This document shows, piece by piece, positions 6,904-29,398 of a stretch of 32,249 bases of DNA. Below the pieces are notes generated by a model. It worked only from the letters and a program-made list of their open reading frames with translations, searched no databases and was not told the origin of the DNA. The translations under genes were made by a program, and so were the position numbers. The number at the start of each line of letters is the position of its first letter. Positions within the stretch are counted from its first letter, which is position 1. The stretch covers positions 1 to 32,249 of the forward strand of contig JAFDYA010000099.1 in assembly GCA_018267675.1 (NCBI GenBank). Reading direction: 5' to 3'. Source of the DNA: Bacteroidota bacterium. Lineage in GTDB: Bacteria > Bacteroidota > Bacteroidia > Chitinophagales > Chitinophagaceae.

Positions 6904-9192
6904 CTATTCCATGACAGTCACCTTTAGCCGAGCCGCATTATTCGATGTGGAAAGCTCGCAAAAATAAACTCCAGAGGGCAGCCCATTGGTAGCAATAGAG
7001 ACAGCGCCCACATGTCCAAGTGTGCGAACCTGAGAAATGGTTTGACCGACCAAATTGGTCAATCGAATTTGAATTAGTTCGTTGCCCCTTGCAAAATCTG
7101 CATCCCACTTTGCAACAAAATACCCTTTGCTGGGATTGGGATAAACAGTACAATTTGCAATTGAAGCAACCGCTTGCGGCACGCCCACTACCGGCCCTTG
7201 CTTAAAGAGGTACAGTCCGCCAAGCGAATTCCCAATGATCAACTCTACCTTCCCGTCGCCATCAATATCACCACCTGTAATCGTTGATCGGGATCCTACG
7301 TTAATCCCGGAATACGCTGCCTCCATACGTTGGTAAGGAGTGACCACATTACCATTCTGAAACCCAGTGTATCGAACAATTTTTCCGGAATCATTCCCTG
7401 CCAGAAGAAAAGGCTTCCCAGTGGTGTCCATCTTACCAATCCAAATGCTTGACCAAGCTGAAAAATCATTAAAATAATTCACTCGTACATCTCCCAACTT
7501 GTTATTGATTTTACTAAGCGCAACACCGCTTCCAGTACCGACATTCTGATAATAGCTCAAATAGCCAGTTTGCTTTCCAACCAAAAGATCCGGCTTACCA
7601 TCAGCATTGATATCATAAACGTAGGGGCTGGCATAATTCCCAACAGAAATAACGGTACCCGTAGCATCTTTCAGGGCCTTCTGATTCAGCGCCCATTGCG
7701 GAACGACAGCATTAGAACTCGCCATGTTTTTATAAAAACTAATGGTACCATCGCTGTGCCCTAGCAGCAAATCGTCTTTACCATCACCATCGATATCCCC
7801 AATTGCCGGCGCCGCACCCGCAAAATCACTCGTGTCGATGTTCAAAAAATTGTTGCTCTGCAAGCTTAGAGAAGTGACTCCCCCCGACTGCGAATTCTGG
7901 TAGTAAGATAAGCGACTTCTATCGCCGACAATACCACTGTAATAGCCGTCTGAACCAACAATCAAATCCAGCTTCCCGTCACGGTTATAGTCATACAAAG
8001 TAGGATAGGATGCAAAGCCCAAATCAATCGTCTGATCCACGAAAAAAGTATCGGATTGATATACAAAAAGTGGAGCCGACGATGTCGCCGTGTTTTTATA
8101 GAAATGGATGCACTGATAATTATCTCCGTAAAGAATAGAATGAGGTGATACCATAATATCCCGCTTCCCGTCCCCATCCACATCGGCGTAGGTAGCTGCA
8201 GGCCAGTCGGTAATGGCAACCTTCTTACCACCAGTTTGCCAAAAAGTATCCTGAGCAATCATGCTATCTGTACCACCAAACTGAGCCCGCCCATTCTCCA
8301 CATATTGAAGGTCATTGAACGAAATGTTGCCGTCTAGTAAATCCATATCCCCATCACCGTCCATATCTACAAGGCACATGGTATTCCCTTGATGTAGGGT
8401 TGCTTTCACCACCTTTTGCCCATTCACAATTTTACAGTTAAATGTACCATCAGTGCCGCAATTTGGGCTACCCTTGTAGGGAATCAATCCGAGTGTATAT
8501 CCTCTGTTAAAGCCCTGATACATGTGCCCCCAACAATGGGTAGGATTGCATATTTCTATAGAATCTTTTGGTAAATGATGCTCCTCTTGGCAATTCTTGA
8601 AATAATCAATCACTGTACCGCTCAACACATCAAAGCCAAGAAAATCAATGTCGCCATCACCATCAATATCGGCAATACCAGGAATATCCGAAGGCTGCGA
8701 ATACGCATTCAAGCGACCAATCCCCGGCGCTGTGAAAAACAAGTCCTTAAAAAAAGTAAAGCTGAGTTGATTGCCTGTGTTGTAGTACCCTTTATAAACA
8801 CTAAAGCCAAACTGTCCTCTATGGATTAGATCAGAAATGCCATCCCGATTGTAATCTACCAAAACAACATAATCATTGCAGGGCGGGAAGCCCCGTTGAT
8901 ACTCGGGTGCATAAACATACTTTGCAGCACCGGCAGTCCCAACGTTGATAAAGGTGCGAAGTGTCCGCGCATACCATTCAAAAAGTACTAAATCCTGAAG
9001 GCCATCCTTGTTCAAATCAGCGTTCTGAAACTGAGGCTGGTTGAAGCCTCCGCACCAAGCCAGTGGCCGATCTTGGCCGTATGCTTTTACCTTAATGGAT
9101 TGATCCGGAAGATAAATCGTGTTCCGTTGCGCAAATCCTGCAACACAGAGCAACTGGGAAAATAAAAAAAGCGTGGTGAAGAATAATTTCAT
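6904..9192 (-). CDS. FG-GAP/VCBS repeat protein with type A T9SS sorting domain
   Basis: The 762-residue protein has a signal peptide (MKLFFTTLFLFSQLL, cleavage near GFAQ). I count nine calcium-loop repeats of the form DxDxDGxxDL, for example DLNKDGLQDL, DIDGDGDIDF, DVDGDGKRDI and DIDGDGKVEL. These are the hallmark of FG-GAP/VCBS beta-propeller blades as in integrin alpha chains. From about residue 684 the sequence VYPNPSKGYF..LTNLVGQTI..GLPSGVYFCEL..KVTVME is a typical type A sorting domain. It is probably a calcium-stabilised surface or secreted protein; no enzymatic motif is visible. It is 211 bases from the next minus-strand gene at its downstream side, and I see no convincing terminator there. 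Confidence 0.93.
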   Translation of the reverse strand: MKLFFTTLFLFSQLLCVAGFAQRNTIYLPDQSIKVKAYGQDRPLAWCGGFNQPQFQNADLNKDGLQDLVLFEWYARTLRTFINVGTAGAAKYVYAPEYQRGFPPCNDYVVLVDYNRDGISDLIHRGQFGFSVYKGYYNTGNQLSFTFFKDLFFTAPGIGRLNAYSQPSDIPGIADIDGDGDIDFLGFDVLSGTVIDYFKNCQEEHHLPKDSIEICNPTHCWGHMYQGFNRGYTLGLIPYKGSPNCGTDGTFNCKIVNGQKVVKATLHQGNTMCLVDMDGDGDMDLLDGNISFNDLQYVENGRAQFGGTDSMIAQDTFWQTGGKKVAITDWPAATYADVDGDGKRDIMVSPHSILYGDNYQCIHFYKNTATSSAPLFVYQSDTFFVDQTIDLGFASYPTLYDYNRDGKLDLIVGSDGYYSGIVGDRSRLSYYQNSQSGGVTSLSLQSNNFLNIDTSDFAGAAPAIGDIDGDGKDDLLLGHSDGTISFYKNMASSNAVVPQWALNQKALKDATGTVISVGNYASPYVYDINADGKPDLLVGKQTGYLSYYQNVGTGSGVALSKINNKLGDVRVNYFNDFSAWSSIWIGKMDTTGKPFLLAGNDSGKIVRYTGFQNGNVVTPYQRMEAAYSGINVGSRSTITGGDIDGDGKVELIIGNSLGGLYLFKQGPVVGVPQAVASIANCTVYPNPSKGYFVAKWDADFARGNELIQIRLTNLVGQTISQVRTLGHVGAVSIATNGLPSGVYFCELSTSNNAARLKVTVME

Positions 9193-9284
9193 TAAAATAT
9201 GGCTTGTTGTGAAATTACGCCGAAAGAGCCCTAAGCAATTGAATAATCTCGAAATTGACCAAACTCATACAAAAAAACAATCCA

Positions 9285-10094
9285 CTAGGACAATGGTGAT
9301 CCGGACTCCTTTTGAAAATGACGAAATACCAATCGATCCGTGAGGCCGGGGAAAAGTTTATTGAGCCAAACAGTCAGCTTCCCTTGTGTGGTCATCACTA
9401 AAGTTCTTTTCCGCCTTTCGATGGCATTCAATACATGAACCGCGCAAACCTCCGCACTCATCAATTTCTGTTCGTCCAAGGGGGTTTCTCCCTGAGCTTG
9501 GCCATCGGCTGCCCGAGCAAGCTTTCTAATATTTGAAGCAGTAAAACCAGGGCTGACCCACATCACATGCACACCTGTGGGCAACAATTCTGTCCGAACG
9601 GATTCCAAAAAACCCTGCATTGCAAACTTGGATGCACTGTAACCTGTACGTCCGGGCAGCCCGCGATAGCCGGCAATGGAGGAAATCCCGACAACAACAC
9701 CTTTAGAATTAATAATTGCCGGTAGTGCTGCTTTGGTACAATTTACCACACCCCAAAAATTCACTTCCATCAGCTCTCGCAATACAGAAAGATCTACCTC
9801 ACGAAACAATGCCCGCATGCTTATCCCTGCATTATTGACCAATACATCTATCCTAGCAAAACGCTTCAGGCAACTTGCAATAAAATTTTTACAGTCCTCT
9901 TCTTTCGTCACATCTGCTTGGAACAACAATAGTCGACGCTTGTCTTGTTCGGAGTAGGCTTGGGTCAATGCTGCTAGATTTCTCCCACATGTAGCCACAT
10001 AAGCCCCTCGGCGTAAGGATTCTAATACCAGTTCTTTTCCTATTCCGGACGAGCCGCCGGTAACGAGCACTACTTTTTCCTTTAACGATTGCAT
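9285..10094 (-). CDS. SDR-family NAD(P)-dependent oxidoreductase
   Basis: This 269-residue protein is a classical short-chain dehydrogenase. The Rossmann glycine motif TGGSSGIG is at residues 12-19, NNAG at 87-90, a catalytic Asn in VNFWG near 112, Ser near 139, and YSASK with Tyr152 and Lys156. PG at about 183 begins the cofactor/substrate loop. The C-terminal part (LNAIERRKRTLVMT) resembles the DltE/YqjQ-like SDR subgroup with a short membrane-associating tail. The substrate cannot be assigned. It is transcribed divergently from purE across a 128-base gap and ends 92 bases upstream of the FG-GAP gene. Confidence 0.9.
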   Translation of the reverse strand: MQSLKEKVVLVTGGSSGIGKELVLESLRRGAYVATCGRNLAALTQAYSEQDKRRLLLFQADVTKEEDCKNFIASCLKRFARIDVLVNNAGISMRALFREVDLSVLRELMEVNFWGVVNCTKAALPAIINSKGVVVGISSIAGYRGLPGRTGYSASKFAMQGFLESVRTELLPTGVHVMWVSPGFTASNIRKLARAADGQAQGETPLDEQKLMSAEVCAVHVLNAIERRKRTLVMTTQGKLTVWLNKLFPGLTDRLVFRHFQKESGSPLS

Positions 10095-19723: not shown

Positions 19724-21571
19724 ATGAGCGATGAAATCCGCCACGAATGCGGGCTAGCATATATCCGCCTCCGGAAGCCACTTACCTACTATTTTGACAA
19801 ATACGGCACCGCCATGTGGGGGCTTAATAAGCTCTACCTACTCATGGAAAAGCAACATAACCGAGGCCAAGACGGAGCTGGTATCGCTGCTGTAAAACTA
19901 GATGTAGCACCGGGGACACAGTTCATGTACCGGCAACGCCAGAGCGGTGCAGGTGCCATCACAAGCATTTTCCAAAACCTAGGAGCAGACATTGCCGAAC
20001 TGGAGAAAATGTATCCGGACATCCGGCAGTACCCCAAACTGCTCAAAGGCTATCTACGCTTCATGGGCGAAGTACTCATGGGGCACCTCCGTTACGGTAC
20101 CCAAGGCAAAAACAATGTGGACTTCTGCCACCCCTTTTTTAAGCCCGATATAGCCCCAGTCCGCAACCTGATGATGGCCGGCAATTTCAACCTGGTCAAT
20201 ACGGACGAGTTGTTTCAAGTGCTTGATAAGCACCCGACAACCACCATGCGGGAAAGCGATCTGGGTGCCATGATAGAGATGGTGCATTATTACCTCTGCC
20301 AAGCCAACGAGCGCAATCCAAATGAACTAGACCTTGAAAGCGTTCTAAAGCAAGCAGCAGCTCACTTTGATGGAGGCTATACCTGTGGCGGTTTGGTGGG
20401 CAACGGTGCTTCTTTTGTTCTGAGAGATCCACACGGCATTCGGCCCGCGTTCTTTTTTGAAGACGACGAAGTGGTTGTTGCCGCGTCGGAACGCCCCGCC
20501 ATCATGACCGCATTCAACGTATCAATTGATAAAGTAAAAGAGTTACAGCCCGGTCATGCACTCCTTGTGGACAGTAAAGGACAGAGTTCCACTCCGGAAA
20601 TTCTTGTACCCCGCACACCTGCCGCCTGCTCCTTTGAACGCATCTACTTTAGCCGTGGCTCCGATGCCGACATCTACAACGAACGGAAACAACTTGGCCG
20701 CAACCTCGCGCCCCGCGTACTTGTAGCCATAGAAAACAACCTGAAAGACACTATCGTTTCTTTCATCCCCAACACCGCTGAGACGGCATTCTTTGGCTTG
20801 ATAAAAGGGCTAGAAGCCTGGCTAAATGAGATCAAACTGGACCGCTTGAAACGTAAGCGGGATACCATGACCGATGAAGACGTACTGGACTTACTCAGCC
20901 GTCGGGTGCGGATAGAAAAAATAGCGATCAAAGATGTGAAAATGCGCACCTTCATCACCGAAGATGCCAGCCGAGCCGAAATGGTACAGCACGTTTATGA
21001 TATCACTTACGGCACCGTGCGCCCAGGGATTGACAACATTGTCGTCATTGATGATAGCATTGTAAGAGGCACCACCCTCCGCGAGAGCATCATCCGAATG
21101 CTAGACCGCCTCGGCCCCAAAAAAATCATCATCGTCTCCTCTGCACCACAAATTCGGTATCCCGACTGCTATGGTATTGACATGAGCCGGATGGGCGACT
21201 TCATTGCCTTCCAAGCCGCCATTGCCCTACTCCACGACACCGATCAAGCCAGCATCATCAAGCAAGTCTATTACGAATGCAAGCAAGCCGCAGATAGCAA
21301 TTCCCTGGACAAACAAAACTTCGTCCAAGGCATCTATGCTCCCTTCAGTGCCGACGAAATCAGTGCGAAAATTGCGGAACTCCTAAAGCCTGAAGATATC
21401 ACAGCGGAGATAGAAATCATCTATCAAAGCTTAGATGGCCTGCACGCCGCTATTCCTAATCATCCCGGCGACTGGTACTTCACCGGCAACTACCCCACAC
21501 CCGGCGGCGCGCGCGTAGCCAACAGAGCCTTCATGAATTGGATGGAGCAAAAAGAAGGACGCGGGTATTAA
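19724..21571 (+). CDS. purF: Amidophosphoribosyltransferase
   Basis: This 615-residue protein catalyses the first committed step of purine synthesis (PRPP plus glutamine to phosphoribosylamine). The N-terminal Ntn-type glutaminase domain begins at Cys9 (MSDEIRHE then CGLAYIR), which must be exposed by propeptide removal; QHNRGQDGAGI, HLRYGT and FNLVN motifs follow. The PRPP loop is VVIDDSIVRGTT, near residues 441-452. It is longer than the roughly 470-510 residues of classical PurF. The extra length includes an insertion around residues 350-415 (WLNEIKLDRLKRKRDTMTDE) and a C-terminal extension, a form I associate with Bacteroidota. It stands alone, away from purE, with its own promoter-like box. 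Confidence 0.94.
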   Translation: MSDEIRHECGLAYIRLRKPLTYYFDKYGTAMWGLNKLYLLMEKQHNRGQDGAGIAAVKLDVAPGTQFMYRQRQSGAGAITSIFQNLGADIAELEKMYPDIRQYPKLLKGYLRFMGEVLMGHLRYGTQGKNNVDFCHPFFKPDIAPVRNLMMAGNFNLVNTDELFQVLDKHPTTTMRESDLGAMIEMVHYYLCQANERNPNELDLESVLKQAAAHFDGGYTCGGLVGNGASFVLRDPHGIRPAFFFEDDEVVVAASERPAIMTAFNVSIDKVKELQPGHALLVDSKGQSSTPEILVPRTPAACSFERIYFSRGSDADIYNERKQLGRNLAPRVLVAIENNLKDTIVSFIPNTAETAFFGLIKGLEAWLNEIKLDRLKRKRDTMTDEDVLDLLSRRVRIEKIAIKDVKMRTFITEDASRAEMVQHVYDITYGTVRPGIDNIVVIDDSIVRGTTLRESIIRMLDRLGPKKIIIVSSAPQIRYPDCYGIDMSRMGDFIAFQAAIALLHDTDQASIIKQVYYECKQAADSNSLDKQNFVQGIYAPFSADEISAKIAELLKPEDITAEIEIIYQSLDGLHAAIPNHPGDWYFTGNYPTPGGARVANRAFMNWMEQKEGRGY

Positions 21572-23985: not shown

Positions 23986-24252
23986 ATGGACGATATTAAA
24001 AATACCCTCAAACAGCAAATTATAGACGCCCTAAACCTACAGGGGATGAAGCCTGAAGAAATTGACGACAATGCACCTCTTTTCGGTGAAGGTCTTGGTC
24101 TTGACTCCATCGACTCCCTCGAGCTCATGGTCTTGTTAGAGCGCAATTACGGCATTAAAATAGAAGACGCTCGTGAGGGGCGGAAAGTATTAAACTCCGT
24201 ACAGTCCATGGCGGATTACATCCAGGAACATAGCGCAAAAAACAGGGCATAG
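23986..24252 (+). CDS. Acyl carrier protein
   Basis: I chose ATG 23986 (88 residues) because MDDIKNTLKQQIIDALNLQG is a natural ACP start. The ATG at 23941 would add 15 residues. The phosphopantetheine attachment site is GLGLDSIDSLEL with Ser41. The length and acidic helices fit an ACP. The neighbours, a ketosynthase starting 33 bases downstream and a ketosynthase-like protein, suggest a dedicated ACP for a secondary polyketide or fatty-acid-like pathway rather than the housekeeping AcpP, which usually lies next to fabF without a second KS-like gene. Confidence 0.9.
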   Translation: MDDIKNTLKQQIIDALNLQGMKPEEIDDNAPLFGEGLGLDSIDSLELMVLLERNYGIKIEDAREGRKVLNSVQSMADYIQEHSAKNRA

Positions 24253-24285
24253 TCTTCTATTCATTTTTGAATAAAACTGGAACAC

Positions 24286-25506
24286 ATGCTACAGACATCG
24301 GATCGAATTGTTGTCAGTAGTATGGGACTAATCTCTGCTCTGGGCACCGGTATCGCCGCTCATACAGCAGCCTTTGAGCAGAGAAAAAGTGGATTGCGCC
24401 ATCCGCAACATCTAAAGACGCTACACGCTTCCGAATTTCTGGTAGGAGAGGTGGCATTATCGGATGTCGCAATGATGCAACAACTAGGTATCCCGTCGAC
24501 TAAAAAAGGATATAGCCGAACATCACTGATATCCATGTGCGCGATCGCAGATATGCTCCAAACAACCGATCTGGCTTGGCTCCAAAACTTACCCAAACTA
24601 GGGTATATCAATGCCAATACTGTGGGCGGGATGAGCATTGTAGAAAATCTCTACATGGAAATGATCACCGACCGGATTGATGAAGAAACGGATAAGTGGA
24701 TTGATACACTAGATTGTGCAGAAAGTACAGAACATGTTGCCCGATTTTTTGGGCTGAACCCGGCTATGGCCACCATCAGTACCGCATGTTCTTCCTCGGC
24801 TAACTCCATAATTGTAGGCGCAAGAATGTTGCAACACGGCTTGGTAGATGCGGTGATCGTCGGCGGTGGTGATGCCCTTAGTCGGTACACATTAAATGGA
24901 TTTTCGGCATTGAAGAATGTGGACAAGACGCCCTGCAAATCATTTGACCAAAATCGAAATGGCCTAAATCTTGGTGAAGGTGCCGGCTATCTTTTGCTGG
25001 AAAAGGAAAGTAGCGCCAAGGCAAGAGGAGCCAATATCCTTGCAATACTGAGTGGTTTTAGCAACCATAATGACACCTACCACCCTACAGCCCCGTCCCC
25101 TGATGGCTCGGGAGCTTTGCGCACCATGGCAGGCGCATTGGAACGTGCAAAATTGCCGGCGCAAGCCATTCACTATATCAATGCACATGGCACGGCAACT
25201 TTAAATAACGACCATTCGGAAGGCTTGGCCATTCAAAACCTTTGGCAAGGAGTTCCACCGCCGTTTTCTTCTACTAAAGCCTTTACAGGTCATACCTTGG
25301 CTGCAGCCGGAGCCGTAGAGGCGATATGCTCCATTGCTGCAATGCAAGCCAATACTGTTCCTCCCAACCTTAATTGGGAGACACCAATGGAAGAACTAAG
25401 TATTCGGCCCTGCACTCAATCCGAAAAAGTCGATATCAACCATGTGATGAGTAATTCATTTGGCTTTGGCGGGAGTAATGTTACCCTTATCTTTTCGCGA
25501 GCATGA
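24286..25506 (+). CDS. Beta-ketoacyl-ACP synthase (FabF-like, complete catalytic triad)
   Basis: This 406-residue condensing enzyme has the nucleophile in STACSSSAN (Cys168), the first histidine in INAHGTAT (His301) and the second in KAFTGHTLAAAG (His336). The GGGDALS and NSFGFGGSN segments are also typical. The triad is therefore that of a KAS I/II enzyme, which elongates acyl-ACP with malonyl-ACP. It diverges from housekeeping FabF in its N-terminal half and resembles ketosynthases of flexirubin and aryl-polyene clusters. It overlaps the next gene by four bases (ATGA), implying translational coupling and a possible heterodimer. Confidence 0.92.
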   Translation: MLQTSDRIVVSSMGLISALGTGIAAHTAAFEQRKSGLRHPQHLKTLHASEFLVGEVALSDVAMMQQLGIPSTKKGYSRTSLISMCAIADMLQTTDLAWLQNLPKLGYINANTVGGMSIVENLYMEMITDRIDEETDKWIDTLDCAESTEHVARFFGLNPAMATISTACSSSANSIIVGARMLQHGLVDAVIVGGGDALSRYTLNGFSALKNVDKTPCKSFDQNRNGLNLGEGAGYLLLEKESSAKARGANILAILSGFSNHNDTYHPTAPSPDGSGALRTMAGALERAKLPAQAIHYINAHGTATLNNDHSEGLAIQNLWQGVPPPFSSTKAFTGHTLAAAGAVEAICSIAAMQANTVPPNLNWETPMEELSIRPCTQSEKVDINHVMSNSFGFGGSNVTLIFSRA

Positions 25507-26552
25507 GGCAGCCCCTTTACATAAAATCTGCTGTAGCTATATCGGCACAGGAAAGCTTTGAAAGGGAAAAGTTTCTTCAGCCATTATTGACGAGCGGGAC
25601 AGGAAAATTATTTGCCCAAGATGCTCCCTATGCGCAATACATTTCCCCGGTAGCCATTCGGCGAATGAGCCGACAAATGAAAATGACCATAAGCTGCGCT
25701 ATGGAAGCGCTTGTCCGTGCTGGTGTTGCAACACCCGATGCCATCATTACCGGTACCGGCCGTGGCGGTGTGACGGATATGGAGCATTTCGTAAAGGATA
25801 TGATCTTACTGAATGAAGGGGCAATGAACCCTACTGCTTTCATTCAAAGTACCTACAATTCTGCCAGCGGATGGATCGCCATGCAAGCCAAATGCACCGG
25901 ATACAATCAGACTTATGTGCACCGCGGATGCTCTTTCGAATTGGCGGTACAAGACGCTCAAATGCTGGCCGGCGAAAGTGAATTGCCGATTAATCTTTTG
26001 GTAGGTTGTTTTGATGAACTCACAGAAGACTACTACCATATTAGGCAAAAAAGAGGCTATTGGAAAATACCGGCTATTTCCTCGGAAAGCCTCTACCAGC
26101 ACGAAGATGTGGCCGGAACAATTGCCGGTGAAGGGGCTAGCTTTTTTGTACTGAGCAATCAGCCCGAGGAACAGCAAAATTGCTTACGGCAGCTGAAAAT
26201 TATCTACCAAGCAAATGCCGAAAAAATTACTCAGGCAATAATGGAAGTAGCTATTGAAGAAGCAATAGGCCTAGATGCGATTGATCTGATTCTCTTGGGT
26301 GATAATGGCGATCCGCGCCAACAACATCTTTATGCTCACCTTGACATTCTATTCCCCAAGACCAGAATGGAACGATTTAAACATTTGTGCGGCGAATTTG
26401 ATACGGCTACCGGCTTTGGGACATGGTATGCGGACTGGATCTTGCACCAAAAACAAGCTGATGGGAAACAACCCAAAAATTTGTTGCTGATTAATCATTA
26501 TATACTCGGTAGTGCTACCGTTATGTTCATTACAGCTCCGGAAACGACATAA
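25503..26552 (+). CDS. Degenerate ketosynthase-like protein, chain-length-factor-like partner
   Basis: The 349-residue protein aligns over its length with condensing enzymes but lacks key residues. The nucleophile region reads VHRGCSFELA, so Cys143 is present. The HGT histidine position reads GDNGD (Asn268), and the GH position in GHTxAAAG reads CGEFDTATG (Glu298). With both histidines missing it is unlikely to decarboxylate malonyl-ACP. It may act like a chain-length factor beside the complete ketosynthase. NPTAFIQSTYNSASGWIA is typical of flexirubin-type KS-like proteins (recalled, not searched). The gene overlaps the ketosynthase by four bases. A function in chain-length control is inference. 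Confidence 0.82.
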   Translation: MRQPLYIKSAVAISAQESFEREKFLQPLLTSGTGKLFAQDAPYAQYISPVAIRRMSRQMKMTISCAMEALVRAGVATPDAIITGTGRGGVTDMEHFVKDMILLNEGAMNPTAFIQSTYNSASGWIAMQAKCTGYNQTYVHRGCSFELAVQDAQMLAGESELPINLLVGCFDELTEDYYHIRQKRGYWKIPAISSESLYQHEDVAGTIAGEGASFFVLSNQPEEQQNCLRQLKIIYQANAEKITQAIMEVAIEEAIGLDAIDLILLGDNGDPRQQHLYAHLDILFPKTRMERFKHLCGEFDTATGFGTWYADWILHQKQADGKQPKNLLLINHYILGSATVMFITAPETT

Positions 26553-26570
26553 ATACTCCTGTATTTTTTG
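26551..26570 (+). terminator. Weak AT-rich hairpin at the end of the KS-like gene
   Basis: AAATAC (26551-26556) pairs with GTATTT (26561-26566) around a TCCT loop and is followed by T residues. It overlaps the stop codon. The stem is AT-rich, so termination may be partial. Confidence 0.35.
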
Positions 26571-26584
26571 TAGTTATTTATGGT

Positions 26585-26624
26585 ATTTCAAAAATTTTTT
26601 ATTTGTTGCATTTCAAAAATTTTT
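26585..26624 (+). repeat. 15-bp direct repeat with 25-base spacing
   Basis: ATTTCAAAAATTTTT occurs at 26585-26599 and again at 26610-26624. Each copy contains the self-complementary AAAAATTTTT. It lies in the AT-rich leader between the KS-like gene and the small lipoprotein. Confidence 0.75.
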
Positions 26625-26665
26625 ATTGACTGAATTTAAATATATTATCAATTCATTAATCCAAA

Positions 26666-26683
26666 TACCGTTTAAAAACGGTA
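26666..26683. promoter_or_regulatory. Perfect palindrome, possible operator
   Basis: TACCGTTT and AAACGGTA are exact reverse complements separated by AA. The palindrome sits 22-39 bases upstream of a TAnnTTTG box and about 70 bases before the lipoprotein start, a position suited to a regulator-binding site near -33. No regulator is assigned. Confidence 0.45.
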
Positions 26684-26704
26684 AAACACTTGGAAATCCG
26701 AAAA

Positions 26705-26712
26705 TAATTTTG
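26705..26712 (+). promoter_or_regulatory. Putative -7 box of the small lipoprotein gene
   Basis: TAATTTTG matches TAnnTTTG and lies 36 bases before the start codon. A TTG exists at 26690-26692, but its spacing is too short for a standard -33 element. Confidence 0.4.
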
Positions 26713-26748
26713 CTTCGCAAATCAATCACAAACAAAAAATATACAGTC

Positions 26749-27276
26749 ATGAAAGCCGCAATTCTTTTCGGAACATTAGCACTAGCTACCACACTCCTAA
26801 CATCCTGCCAACCGGAAGCCGTAAAAGCACCAGGTGCAGATGCTACTCATGTGACCACGCCCAACCCTTCAGTTACGCATAGCAATGCCAGAATCACCGG
26901 CAATGGCTATTCCCAATCCATCTCCTTAGAGGAAGGAAACCAAATGATTGCCAGCTACCTCCAGAGTGTCAATTATCCCTACCAAGATACAGCACTTCGC
27001 GCACTTTCTTTTGATGCCGATACTTTGCGTGCCTATCTTGCTGATCCTTCAATTACTACAATGAAGTTTTACTTCGGCCACCAACTTAGTTATCTGAATA
27101 GTGGTACCAACCTTACCGGAAAATATATAGGGATGAAACCCGGAGCTTTGACTATTATTGCAGTCGGACTAAATGATGCAGGTGCTGTCGTGCGGAATAA
27201 ATCAAATGGAGTGTATGAGCACGCGATGCCGTGTCCCTATGTTTGCGGAGTTCAGACTGATGCATACCTACATTAA
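26749..27276 (+). CDS. Small lipoprotein of unknown function
   Basis: I start this gene at ATG 26749 (175 residues) because MKAAILFGTLALATTLLTSC is a complete lipoprotein signal with lipobox LLTSC and Cys20. The longer frame from 26512 overlaps the KS-like gene and encodes unlikely basic sequence. The mature part begins with a low-complexity Ala/Pro/Thr linker, followed by a compact domain (EEGNQMIASYLQSVN, LRAYLADPSITTMKFYFGHQL) and a C-terminal CPYVCG pair of cysteines. I do not recognise the family, though FDADTLRAYLADPSIxxMKFYFG has the feel of short Bacteroidota envelope lipoproteins. A palindrome and a -7-like box lie upstream. Confidence 0.85.
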   Translation: MKAAILFGTLALATTLLTSCQPEAVKAPGADATHVTTPNPSVTHSNARITGNGYSQSISLEEGNQMIASYLQSVNYPYQDTALRALSFDADTLRAYLADPSITTMKFYFGHQLSYLNSGTNLTGKYIGMKPGALTIIAVGLNDAGAVVRNKSNGVYEHAMPCPYVCGVQTDAYLH

Positions 27277-27283
27277 ATTTCGA

Positions 27284-27299
27284 ATCAACACTTGTTGAT
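27284..27299. repeat. Short perfect inverted repeat after the lipoprotein gene
   Basis: ATCAACA and TGTTGAT flank a CT spacer, 8 bases after the lipoprotein stop and 13 before the next start. No T tract follows, so it is not an evident terminator. It could be an operator or a processing hairpin. Confidence 0.4.
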
Positions 27300-27311
27300 A
27301 GTACTTAAGCC

Positions 27312-27965
27312 ATGGATAGTTGGGAACCGAGATTTACTATTTACATAGTTCTGTTGCTTGCCAATTGTATCTATTGTTGGATTAAATGGCCGATATTAAA
27401 GAATGCAGATCGTTGGATCTGCATTCTTTTAACTCTCACTGTCGTTCAAGAGGCTATCGCAGGCTATCTTACTAAGACCTTAAAAAGCAACTTTATAACT
27501 TATCATATTTACACACCAATAGAACTCGTTCTTATATGTATTTACTTTGACCTCAGTTTAAAAATTCTCAAACCCTACCGATTAGCACTGTGTATCGGAA
27601 TTCCCGCCACGATAACAAGCATTTTAATATCTATCTTTCTCCAACATTACAACAAATACAACTCCTATTTTCTCTTAATCGAGGGTCTTATTATAATCAC
27701 ACTTTGTTTGGTAGCATTTTACAAGCTGCTCATCAGAGAAGATGTTGTCCCAAAGAAAATGGTTCACTTTTGGCTTACTATGGCTTTCCTACTCTATTGG
27801 AGCCTCACTTATGTCAGTTTGGGTCTATTTAGTGGAGAGAGTCAGAATATTGATTTTGTTGCAAAGATTATTGCTTGGGCTCTTTACGTGTCCAACCTCC
27901 TATTTTATGCCGGCCTACTAATCATTTTCATCCGTTACAAACGCCTAATACCCTCCGGTGAATAA
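27312..27965 (+). CDS. Seven-transmembrane protein, probable sensor partner of the next histidine kinase
   Basis: The 217-residue protein has about seven hydrophobic segments (near residues 8-24, 35-53, 64-83, 91-111, 119-140, 151-173 and 181-208) and no large soluble domain. I do not recognise a named family. Its last 8 bases overlap the start of the histidine kinase gene (GTG at 27958), which itself lacks a sensor domain. The natural inference is that it supplies the membrane sensing part of the two-component system. It could instead be an unrelated membrane protein that happens to share the operon. Confidence 0.8.
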   Translation: MDSWEPRFTIYIVLLLANCIYCWIKWPILKNADRWICILLTLTVVQEAIAGYLTKTLKSNFITYHIYTPIELVLICIYFDLSLKILKPYRLALCIGIPATITSILISIFLQHYNKYNSYFLLIEGLIIITLCLVAFYKLLIREDVVPKKMVHFWLTMAFLLYWSLTYVSLGLFSGESQNIDFVAKIIAWALYVSNLLFYAGLLIIFIRYKRLIPSGE

Positions 27966-28740
27966 TACCTTACTCATATTCATTGCTGGCACTTTTCTCA
28001 TGCTGGTTTTTGCGGTCATGATGGTCGTATTTCTTGTCATTCATAAGCAAAAACAAAACCGCAATAGACTGGAACGGCAACAACTGGAACACAGCTACAA
28101 GTCGGCCCTTTTATCGTCAAAAATTGAAGTACAGGAACAAGCCCTCAGCTTTGTTTCTCAGGAAATCCACGATAATATCGGGCAGATGCTTTCGTTTAGC
28201 CTCCTACAGTTGACCCCATTGAAAAATGCATTTCATGACGAAAACCAGAAGAAAATTTTTGGCGAAAACCTTGAGGGTATTCGAAATTCTATAAAATCGC
28301 TTCGTCACTTAAGTCATAATCTCAACTCTACGATGGTAGAACAACGAGACCTGGAAGATGCGATAAAATCTGAACTAAGTCGGATAAAATCATTCAGCCA
28401 AATTCACTGCGCACTACAGGTTAAGGGAGAACACGAGGCAATGAGCCCGGAACATCGCCTCATCTGTTTCCGTATCTTCCAAGAGGCCTTGCAGAATATT
28501 GTAAAACATTCGGAAGCAAAAAATGTACTGATTAGTTTAAACCATTCCAAAGAAAATCTCGAACTTCGAATAAAAGACGACGGAAAAGGAATGGATACCA
28601 AGGCCATGCAGCACTCTTCCACTATGGGCATGATTAATATGCGCCAGCGAGCGGGATTGCTGAAGGGCAGCTTACAGGTGCATTCGGGAGTGGCCGCGGG
28701 TACAGAAATCGTTTTGTTCATTCCAAGAAACAGCGCCTAA
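27958..28740 (+). CDS. NarX/DesK-type sensor histidine kinase without a sensor domain
   Basis: The 260-residue kinase starts at GTG 27958. One membrane helix (residues about 4-28) is followed by a coiled-coil linker (KQKQNRNRLERQQLE) and a HisKA_3 dimerisation domain with the phosphoacceptor in QEIHDNIGQ (His71). The HATPase domain shows the N box (FQEALQNIVKHSEAKN), the G1 box DDGKGMD and MGMINMRQRAGLLKG near the end. This architecture pairs with NarL/FixJ response regulators, as the next gene encodes. There is no periplasmic or PAS domain, so sensing probably depends on the overlapping 7-TM gene. Confidence 0.92.
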   Translation: MNNTLLIFIAGTFLMLVFAVMMVVFLVIHKQKQNRNRLERQQLEHSYKSALLSSKIEVQEQALSFVSQEIHDNIGQMLSFSLLQLTPLKNAFHDENQKKIFGENLEGIRNSIKSLRHLSHNLNSTMVEQRDLEDAIKSELSRIKSFSQIHCALQVKGEHEAMSPEHRLICFRIFQEALQNIVKHSEAKNVLISLNHSKENLELRIKDDGKGMDTKAMQHSSTMGMINMRQRAGLLKGSLQVHSGVAAGTEIVLFIPRNSA

Positions 28741-28744
28741 TACA

Positions 28745-29398
28745 ATGTCTCAAGGAGCACGCATTCGGATTGCAATTGCAGATGATCATACCATGTTTCG
28801 CAAGGGAATTGTTCAGCTCCTCAAAGACTCTCAAAAATTTGATATCGTTGCAGAGGCAAGTAATGGGCAGGAACTATATGACCTGATAATGGCTATGGAA
28901 ACGCCTCCGGAAATTTGCCTGCTCGACATCAATATGCCCATCCTTGATGGCTATAAAACACTGCCAAAAATCAAATTTGAATATCCCAGGATGAAGTTCA
29001 TGGTGCTCTCTATGAACGATCACGAATTTGCCATTATCAAAATGCTCCGTAGCGGTGCTAATGGCTATCTGCTGAAAGAAGATGACCCGGACGAGCTGAT
29101 CCGTGCGCTAGAATATATCCATACGCATGACTTTTATTATACCGAGCTTACCAATACGCATTTGCAAAGTATGCGTAGCGATCATGCCGGTAAAAAACCG
29201 GTACGCCTTAACGAAAACGAATTACTCTTCCTAGAATTATGCTGTTCTGAAATGGCCTACAAAGAAATTGCCCAGCACATGGGGCTTTCGGTACGTACCA
29301 TTGAAGGCTATCGGGATGAACTATTCAAAAAATTGCACCTCAACACTCGAACCGGCCTCGTAATCTATGCCCTGCGGGAAGGCTTTGTTCGACTTTGA
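28745..29398 (+). CDS. NarL/FixJ-family response regulator
   Basis: The 217-residue protein has an N-terminal receiver domain with acidic pair Asp13-Asp14, phosphorylated Asp61 in LLDINMP, a conserved Ser in VLSMND and Lys in LLKEDD. After a linker, the C-terminal LuxR-type helix-turn-helix (CCSEMAYKEIAQHMGLSVRTIEGYRDELFKKL) binds DNA. It starts 4 bases after the histidine kinase stop, so the pair is co-transcribed. Targets are not visible; the palindromes upstream of the lipoprotein gene (26666-26683) and before the 7-TM gene (27284-27299) are possible but untested binding sites. Confidence 0.94.
   Translation: MSQGARIRIAIADDHTMFRKGIVQLLKDSQKFDIVAEASNGQELYDLIMAMETPPEICLLDINMPILDGYKTLPKIKFEYPRMKFMVLSMNDHEFAIIKMLRSGANGYLLKEDDPDELIRALEYIHTHDFYYTELTNTHLQSMRSDHAGKKPVRLNENELLFLELCCSEMAYKEIAQHMGLSVRTIEGYRDELFKKLHLNTRTGLVIYALREGFVRL

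Follow-up and report, generated by a model that had tools for sequence, protein, structure and literature searches.

A lone acyl carrier protein, ketosynthase and chain-length factor triplet of the Chitinophagaceae as a probable DarC-DarJ-DarK block of a dispersed flexirubin pathway

Introduction

Flexirubins are yellow-orange bacterial pigments. In the dialkylresorcinol (dar) cluster of Azoarcus BH72, darA-B-D-E-F-I are followed by darC, coding for an acyl carrier protein (ACP), darJ, coding for a ketosynthase (KS), and darK, annotated as 'hypothetical' (PMC3949708). Pigment loci that are not linked to each other are already known from the arc loci of Azoarcus (PMC3949708), and separate flx and dar clusters have been described in Chitinophaga pinensis (PMC3992019).

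Here we analyzed a stretch of 32,249 nucleotides from a member of the Chitinophagaceae (the window), which is contig C210 in a 211-contig assembly that is 84% complete. It contains an ACP gene, a KS gene and a third, KS-like gene in the same order as darC-darJ-darK of Azoarcus BH72 (azo0285-0283), a likeness that for DarJ and DarK rests on gene order and the published annotation (PMC3949708). In the known dar clusters this triplet is found beside darA/darB, whereas in the window it stands apart from darA-darB and from BtrH/ABC genes.

Results

Genes of the triplet and their neighbors

The triplet consists of the following genes and sites, and all three reading frames are intact:

23986..24252, + strand: acyl carrier protein (DarC-like), 88 aa; PF00550, 38.8 bits
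24106-24108, + strand: codon of the ACP phosphopantetheine Ser41, in the motif LGLDSIDS
24286..25506, + strand: ketosynthase (DarJ-like), 406 aa; PF00109 and PF02801
24787-24789, + strand: codon of the KS catalytic Cys168
25186-25188, + strand: codon of the KS catalytic His301
25291-25293, + strand: codon of the KS catalytic His336
25503..26552, + strand: degenerate ketosynthase or chain-length factor (CLF, DarK-like), 349 aa; PF13723/PF00109

Reading frames and Pfam domains confirm that ACP, KS and an overlapping KS-like gene form a real and tight three-gene unit, as a previous sequence-only reading had described it. The KS stop and the KS-like start overlap in the sequence ATGA (25503-25506), which may be taken as a hint, suggestive only, of a KS/CLF heterodimer. 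The ACP additionally matched NF006617 with 75.2 bits, above the cut-off of 70 for this family. The score of the KS against the NF006618 (PRK09185) subfamily was 303.5 bits, below the curated cut-off of 407, which places it outside this subfamily. For the KS-like protein, the Pfam matches were marginal, N-terminal and barely above the cut-off. A promoter and terminator scan gave no signal above that of shuffled sequences.

Downstream of the triplet (26512-29398), the window encodes a lipoprotein, a membrane protein of 217 aa and a two-component pair of histidine kinase and LuxR-type response regulator. The same foursome is located downstream of the triplet in the same-genus genome G002 and a few kb upstream of it in G028, and none of the other close loci that were read showed it. 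Because of this absence, the two-component genes were not counted as accessory regulators belonging to the triplet. Further upstream, a 615-aa protein (19724-21571) gave a partial amidophosphoribosyltransferase match (136.6 bits against a cut-off of 350) and weak glutamine-amidotransferase matches, resembling a divergent PurF. Between 3472 and 19120, the minus strand encodes a number of large secreted proteins, which carry tails for type IX secretion (CHU_C, Por_Secre_tail) and FG-GAP or Ig-like repeats.

Catalytic residues and fold of the ketosynthase partner

Cys168, His301 and His336 of the KS are invariant in 17 homologues as well as in 75 of 75 sequences of a larger set, and the complete catalytic triad previously ascribed to this protein therefore stands. 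The register of the KS-like protein was established by phmmer to 1j3n, by hhalign of two family profiles, by profile alignment to 4jga and by a joint alignment of 114 CLFs and 75 KSs. The positions of interest are:

25926..25928, + strand: CLF Gly142, aligned with the nucleophilic Cys of the KS; Gly in 102/114 CLFs, Cys in 75/75 KSs
25929..25931, + strand: CLF Cys143, one residue beyond the nucleophile position; Cys in 1/114
26298..26300, + strand: CLF Gly266, aligned with KS His301; Gly in 110/114, same register in hhalign
26394..26396, + strand: CLF Glu298, aligned with KS His336; Glu in 99/114 and Asp in 11/114, register also by hhalign

All four alignments placed Gly142 at the nucleophile position. 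Among the 114 homologues, Cys at position 143 occurs only in the protein of the window itself; the same-genus G002 has Gln at this position, and most others have Phe, Ile or Leu. The retained catalytic Cys that the sequence-only reading had seen in Cys143 was thus the result of a register error of one residue, and both the alignment register and the missing conservation rule it out. The proposed replacement of the two histidines by Asn and Glu was correct in that both are gone and that the second is replaced by Glu298, whereas Gly266 and not Asn268 occupies the position of the first. No KS-like protein with both histidines was seen among the homologues examined. With Gly142, Gly266 and Glu298 at the triad positions, all three catalytic positions of the CLF are therefore lost, as is expected of a chain-length factor.

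The AlphaFold model of the KS-like protein as a single chain (pLDDT 89, pTM 0.90) has the full-length two-domain KS fold with a Z-score of ~36, residues 1-348 being matched to two-domain KSs, and its top Foldseek match was the ishigamide KS/CLF (6kxd). A partner that has the KS fold and has lost the catalytic residues is a mark of type II KS/CLF pairs, and the presence of such a partner next to a KS with an intact triad supports the earlier proposal of a KSα/chain-length-factor-like pair with its own ACP.

Triplet loci in related genomes

In a scan of named genomes, 18 of 18 Chitinophaga and Pinibacter loci with triplets of the type found in the window adjoin darA/darB, including the locus of C. 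pinensis YS-16 (L169). The usual order in these genera is darA-darB-(darD)-darE-darF-darI-ACP-KS-CLF, the triplet mostly forming the tail of the dar operon. The order ACP-KS-KS-like is found within the window-type clade of the CLF tree, which in these genera is linked to darA/darB (18/18 loci).

At all 14 loci closest to the window (L099-L112), which belong to Chitinophagaceae IBVUCB1, Taibaiella and metagenome-assembled genomes, the triplet stands alone between mostly unrelated flanks. Across the closest lone loci, the proteins are 77-91% (ACP), 55-61% (KS) and 45-52% (CLF) identical. DarB was found elsewhere in nine of the ten lone-triplet genomes searched, and one lone triplet is located on a contig of 1.9 Mb at a distance of more than 600 kb from DarB. 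An artefact of contig boundaries can be ruled out: lone triplets were found at 14 independent loci, one of them being that on the 1.9 Mb contig, and in the single-contig genome G024 the flexirubin pathway is also split over several places. One relative with a lone triplet carries a tandem pair of darB-like genes (G067:C133:29865-32223). In the literature searched, we found no account of scattered flexirubin genes, which is weak evidence.

Flexirubin genes in the source genome and its genus

The observation that the usual pathway partners are absent from the flanks is true for the window; a search of the source genome located pathway genes on other contigs. The genome contains darA-darB on C166, a flexirubin-type ammonia-lyase on C140, a CoA-ligase on C5, a BtrH-like gene on C118 and a second KS/CLF pair on C167. 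Hence, darA, darB, the ammonia-lyase and the CoA-ligase are all present, darA/darB and the triplet are not physically linked, and the suspected dependence on genes elsewhere is borne out by most of a flexirubin pathway. On C167 (L009), the second KS/CLF pair (7948-10064) is directly preceded by a gene for a 184-aa protein without Pfam match (7354-7908), which resembles the KSN-type gene of flexirubin clusters; the ACP gene that lies between KSN-type gene and KS/CLF in other genomes is absent here.

The 84%-complete source assembly yielded no FlxC-type KS, FlxI-type KS, LPLAT or MMPL exporter. These four missing genes could be explained if the flexirubin pathway was being lost and the lone triplet was a functionless, decaying remnant. 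We regard such a decay as most improbable since neither the frames nor the KS triad show damage, the proteins have stayed similar across the closest lone loci to the extent given above, the assembly is only 84% complete and every missing gene is present in the same-genus genome G002, which is rated 100% complete and contains the FlxC-type and FlxI-type KSs, LPLAT and the exporter on C12, C18 and C61. In G001 and G003 from the same genus, neither the triplet nor DarB, the flexirubin-type lyase, LPLAT, the exporter, the CoA-ligase or the BtrH-like gene was found. G002 thus has the whole dispersed set of flexirubin genes and G001 and G003 have none of it, as if these genes were kept or lost together. 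The darB match of G002 (C111:19053-20183) contains one TAG within the aligned stretch, yet a 377-aa open frame is listed, so that the TAG possibly stems from the boundary of the match or from damage to this copy.

Over 59 relatives, the KS-like family is found together with DarB, the lyase and LPLAT, with 15 of 16 shared (Fisher p = 6e-12, 6e-12 and 4e-13, respectively). A weak KS-like match with two internal stops in G021 (E = 9e-4) was excluded from this count. The co-occurrence bears on the product that had been suggested for the triplet, a short special acyl chain made by an independent small pathway unrelated to flexirubin. Such a pathway would agree with the lack of any pathway partner in the window and with the isolation of the triplet at 14 of 14 closest loci. 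However, the near-perfect co-occurrence of the triplet with flexirubin genes, the lack of the flexirubin genes searched in the triplet-less G001 and G003 and the existence of dar-operon counterparts argue against it, and we give it very little credence. With flexirubin genes in the same genome and as counterpart of darC-darJ-darK, the triplet does not support the short-chain product.

Relation to the polyene-side ketosynthase pair

Both halves of the flexirubin pathway can have their own KS/CLF set, as seen in G006, where a complete flexirubin-type cluster on one contig includes ACP-KS-CLF adjoining darA/darB and KSN-ACP-KS-CLF inside the polyene genes. The gene names in G006 were assigned from similarity and order, and the layout agrees with the published flx and dar genes of C. 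pinensis (PMC3992019). The CLF tree separates an FlxO-type group from a dar-linked clade (G006, G024, G031, G030, G042 and G049) and both from a window-type clade (support 95/91), which comprises, besides the window, G002, G028, G004, G009, G012, G011 and G054. The two dar-type CLF clades were never seen together in one genome, and neither type was seen in the DarB-positive genomes G010 and G033.

A complete set of aryl-polyene genes elsewhere, with the triplet as a simple duplicate, would have contradicted the sequence-only reading. Other pathway genes indeed lie elsewhere, but the triplet is no simple duplicate of the polyene pair because it belongs to its own clade, has its own conserved gene order and coexists with the second KS/CLF pair. 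In pairwise scores, the FlxN/FlxO pair was somewhat nearer to the KS and CLF of the window than the other, dar-linked pair was. An alternative is that the triplet acts in the same pathway at another step, either elongating the aryl-polyene chain or handing the polyene to the resorcinol instead of providing alkyl chains. Consistent with such a role, the best family match of the KS is NF006618, its best solved relatives include the aryl-polyene KSs 6qsp_A and 7f28_B, the two KS/CLF pairs of the flexirubin pathway are homologous, and darA and darB are enough for dialkylresorcinol (DAR) formation in a heterologous host (PMC3992019). Against it, nearly all genomes have a FlxN/FlxO-type KS/CLF pair that belongs to the polyene genes themselves, and where the window type is linked at all, it is linked to darA/darB and not to lyase or polyene genes. 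We therefore consider a polyene-side function unlikely, though less so than decay or a separate short-chain pathway.

Discussion

Our analyses make it probable (roughly 0.7) that the triplet represents the DarC-DarJ-DarK block (ACP, KS and CLF) of a flexirubin pathway that this lineage carries in dispersed form. As far as sequence data can tell, this assignment is carried by the association with the darA/darB side, the KS triad, the triad-less partner with KS fold and the attachment site of the ACP. Speaking against it are the four genes not found in the assembly, the DarB-positive genomes G010 and G033 in which no dar-type CLF was seen, and the pairwise scores that favor the FlxN/FlxO pair. 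KS and CLF would pair into a heterodimer whose KS may perform decarboxylative Claisen condensations on ACP-bound chains, while the CLF would shape the tunnel that sets the chain length. The dedicated ACP could then deliver β-ketoacyl or enoyl chains to the cyclase DarB and the aromatase DarA, which would join them into DAR for esterification to the aryl polyene. Heterologously expressed darA and darB by themselves yield DAR (PMC3992019), and the triplet is therefore not strictly needed for ring formation, at least where the host supplies a fatty acid synthase of its own. The role of the triplet is thus likely chain supply and chain-length control.

We regard the triplet as a normal part of a known pathway that lies in an unusual place, and the wide dispersal of a pathway that is nevertheless kept is the sole mildly unusual point. 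Neither KS/CLF pairs nor the dar cluster is new; what is modestly added is the extent of the dispersal and a reading of darK-type genes as CLFs of full length. A more far-reaching proposal, which we put forward tentatively and at slightly less than even odds, is that the pathway has been split into many loci but that species of one genus still retain or lose all of it, and that a full-length Gly/Gly/Glu CLF serves the resorcinol half alone. If this is true, darK-type 'hypothetical' genes would be chain-length factors. The assignment to the flexirubin pathway accounts for a lone KS/CLF triplet of a kind that gene finders relying on clusters would overlook or misinterpret, and the missing neighbors in the window do not imply a new product. 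The lineage also provides a natural case of a scattered pigment pathway that is apparently inherited as a set.

Among solved systems, the aryl-polyene KS-CLF ApeO-ApeC (6qsp, 7f28) likewise combines an active KS with an inactive partner, and in single-sequence comparison with the PDB the KS-like protein matched the ApeC chain 6qsp_B best (E = 0.12; 8.7e-10 with a profile). ApeC has ~240 aa and has nearly lost the second thiolase domain (PMC8358021), whereas the partner in the window has 349 aa and both domains, so that it is no half-size CLF and its domain content rules out membership in the ApeC group. Iga11-Iga12 (ishigamide, 6kxd) and the actinorhodin KS/CLF (1tqy) likewise have a full-length CLF beside an active KS, although identity is ~11-15%. 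Classical KSβ proteins carry Gln at the nucleophile position, in contrast to Gly142 of the CLF described here.

FlxL-FlxM-FlxN-FlxO of C. pinensis (PMC3992019; mapped by gene order) contain a homologous KS/CLF pair with the same fold and the same lost residues. The Flx set differs in belonging to a separate clade and in having an extra truncated KS-like gene, and both types occur together in the source genome (the Flx type on C167). In the published table for Azoarcus, darK is listed as hypothetical (PMC3949708), whereas its counterpart in the window reads as a CLF, which suggests that the third gene of dar clusters encodes a chain-length factor.
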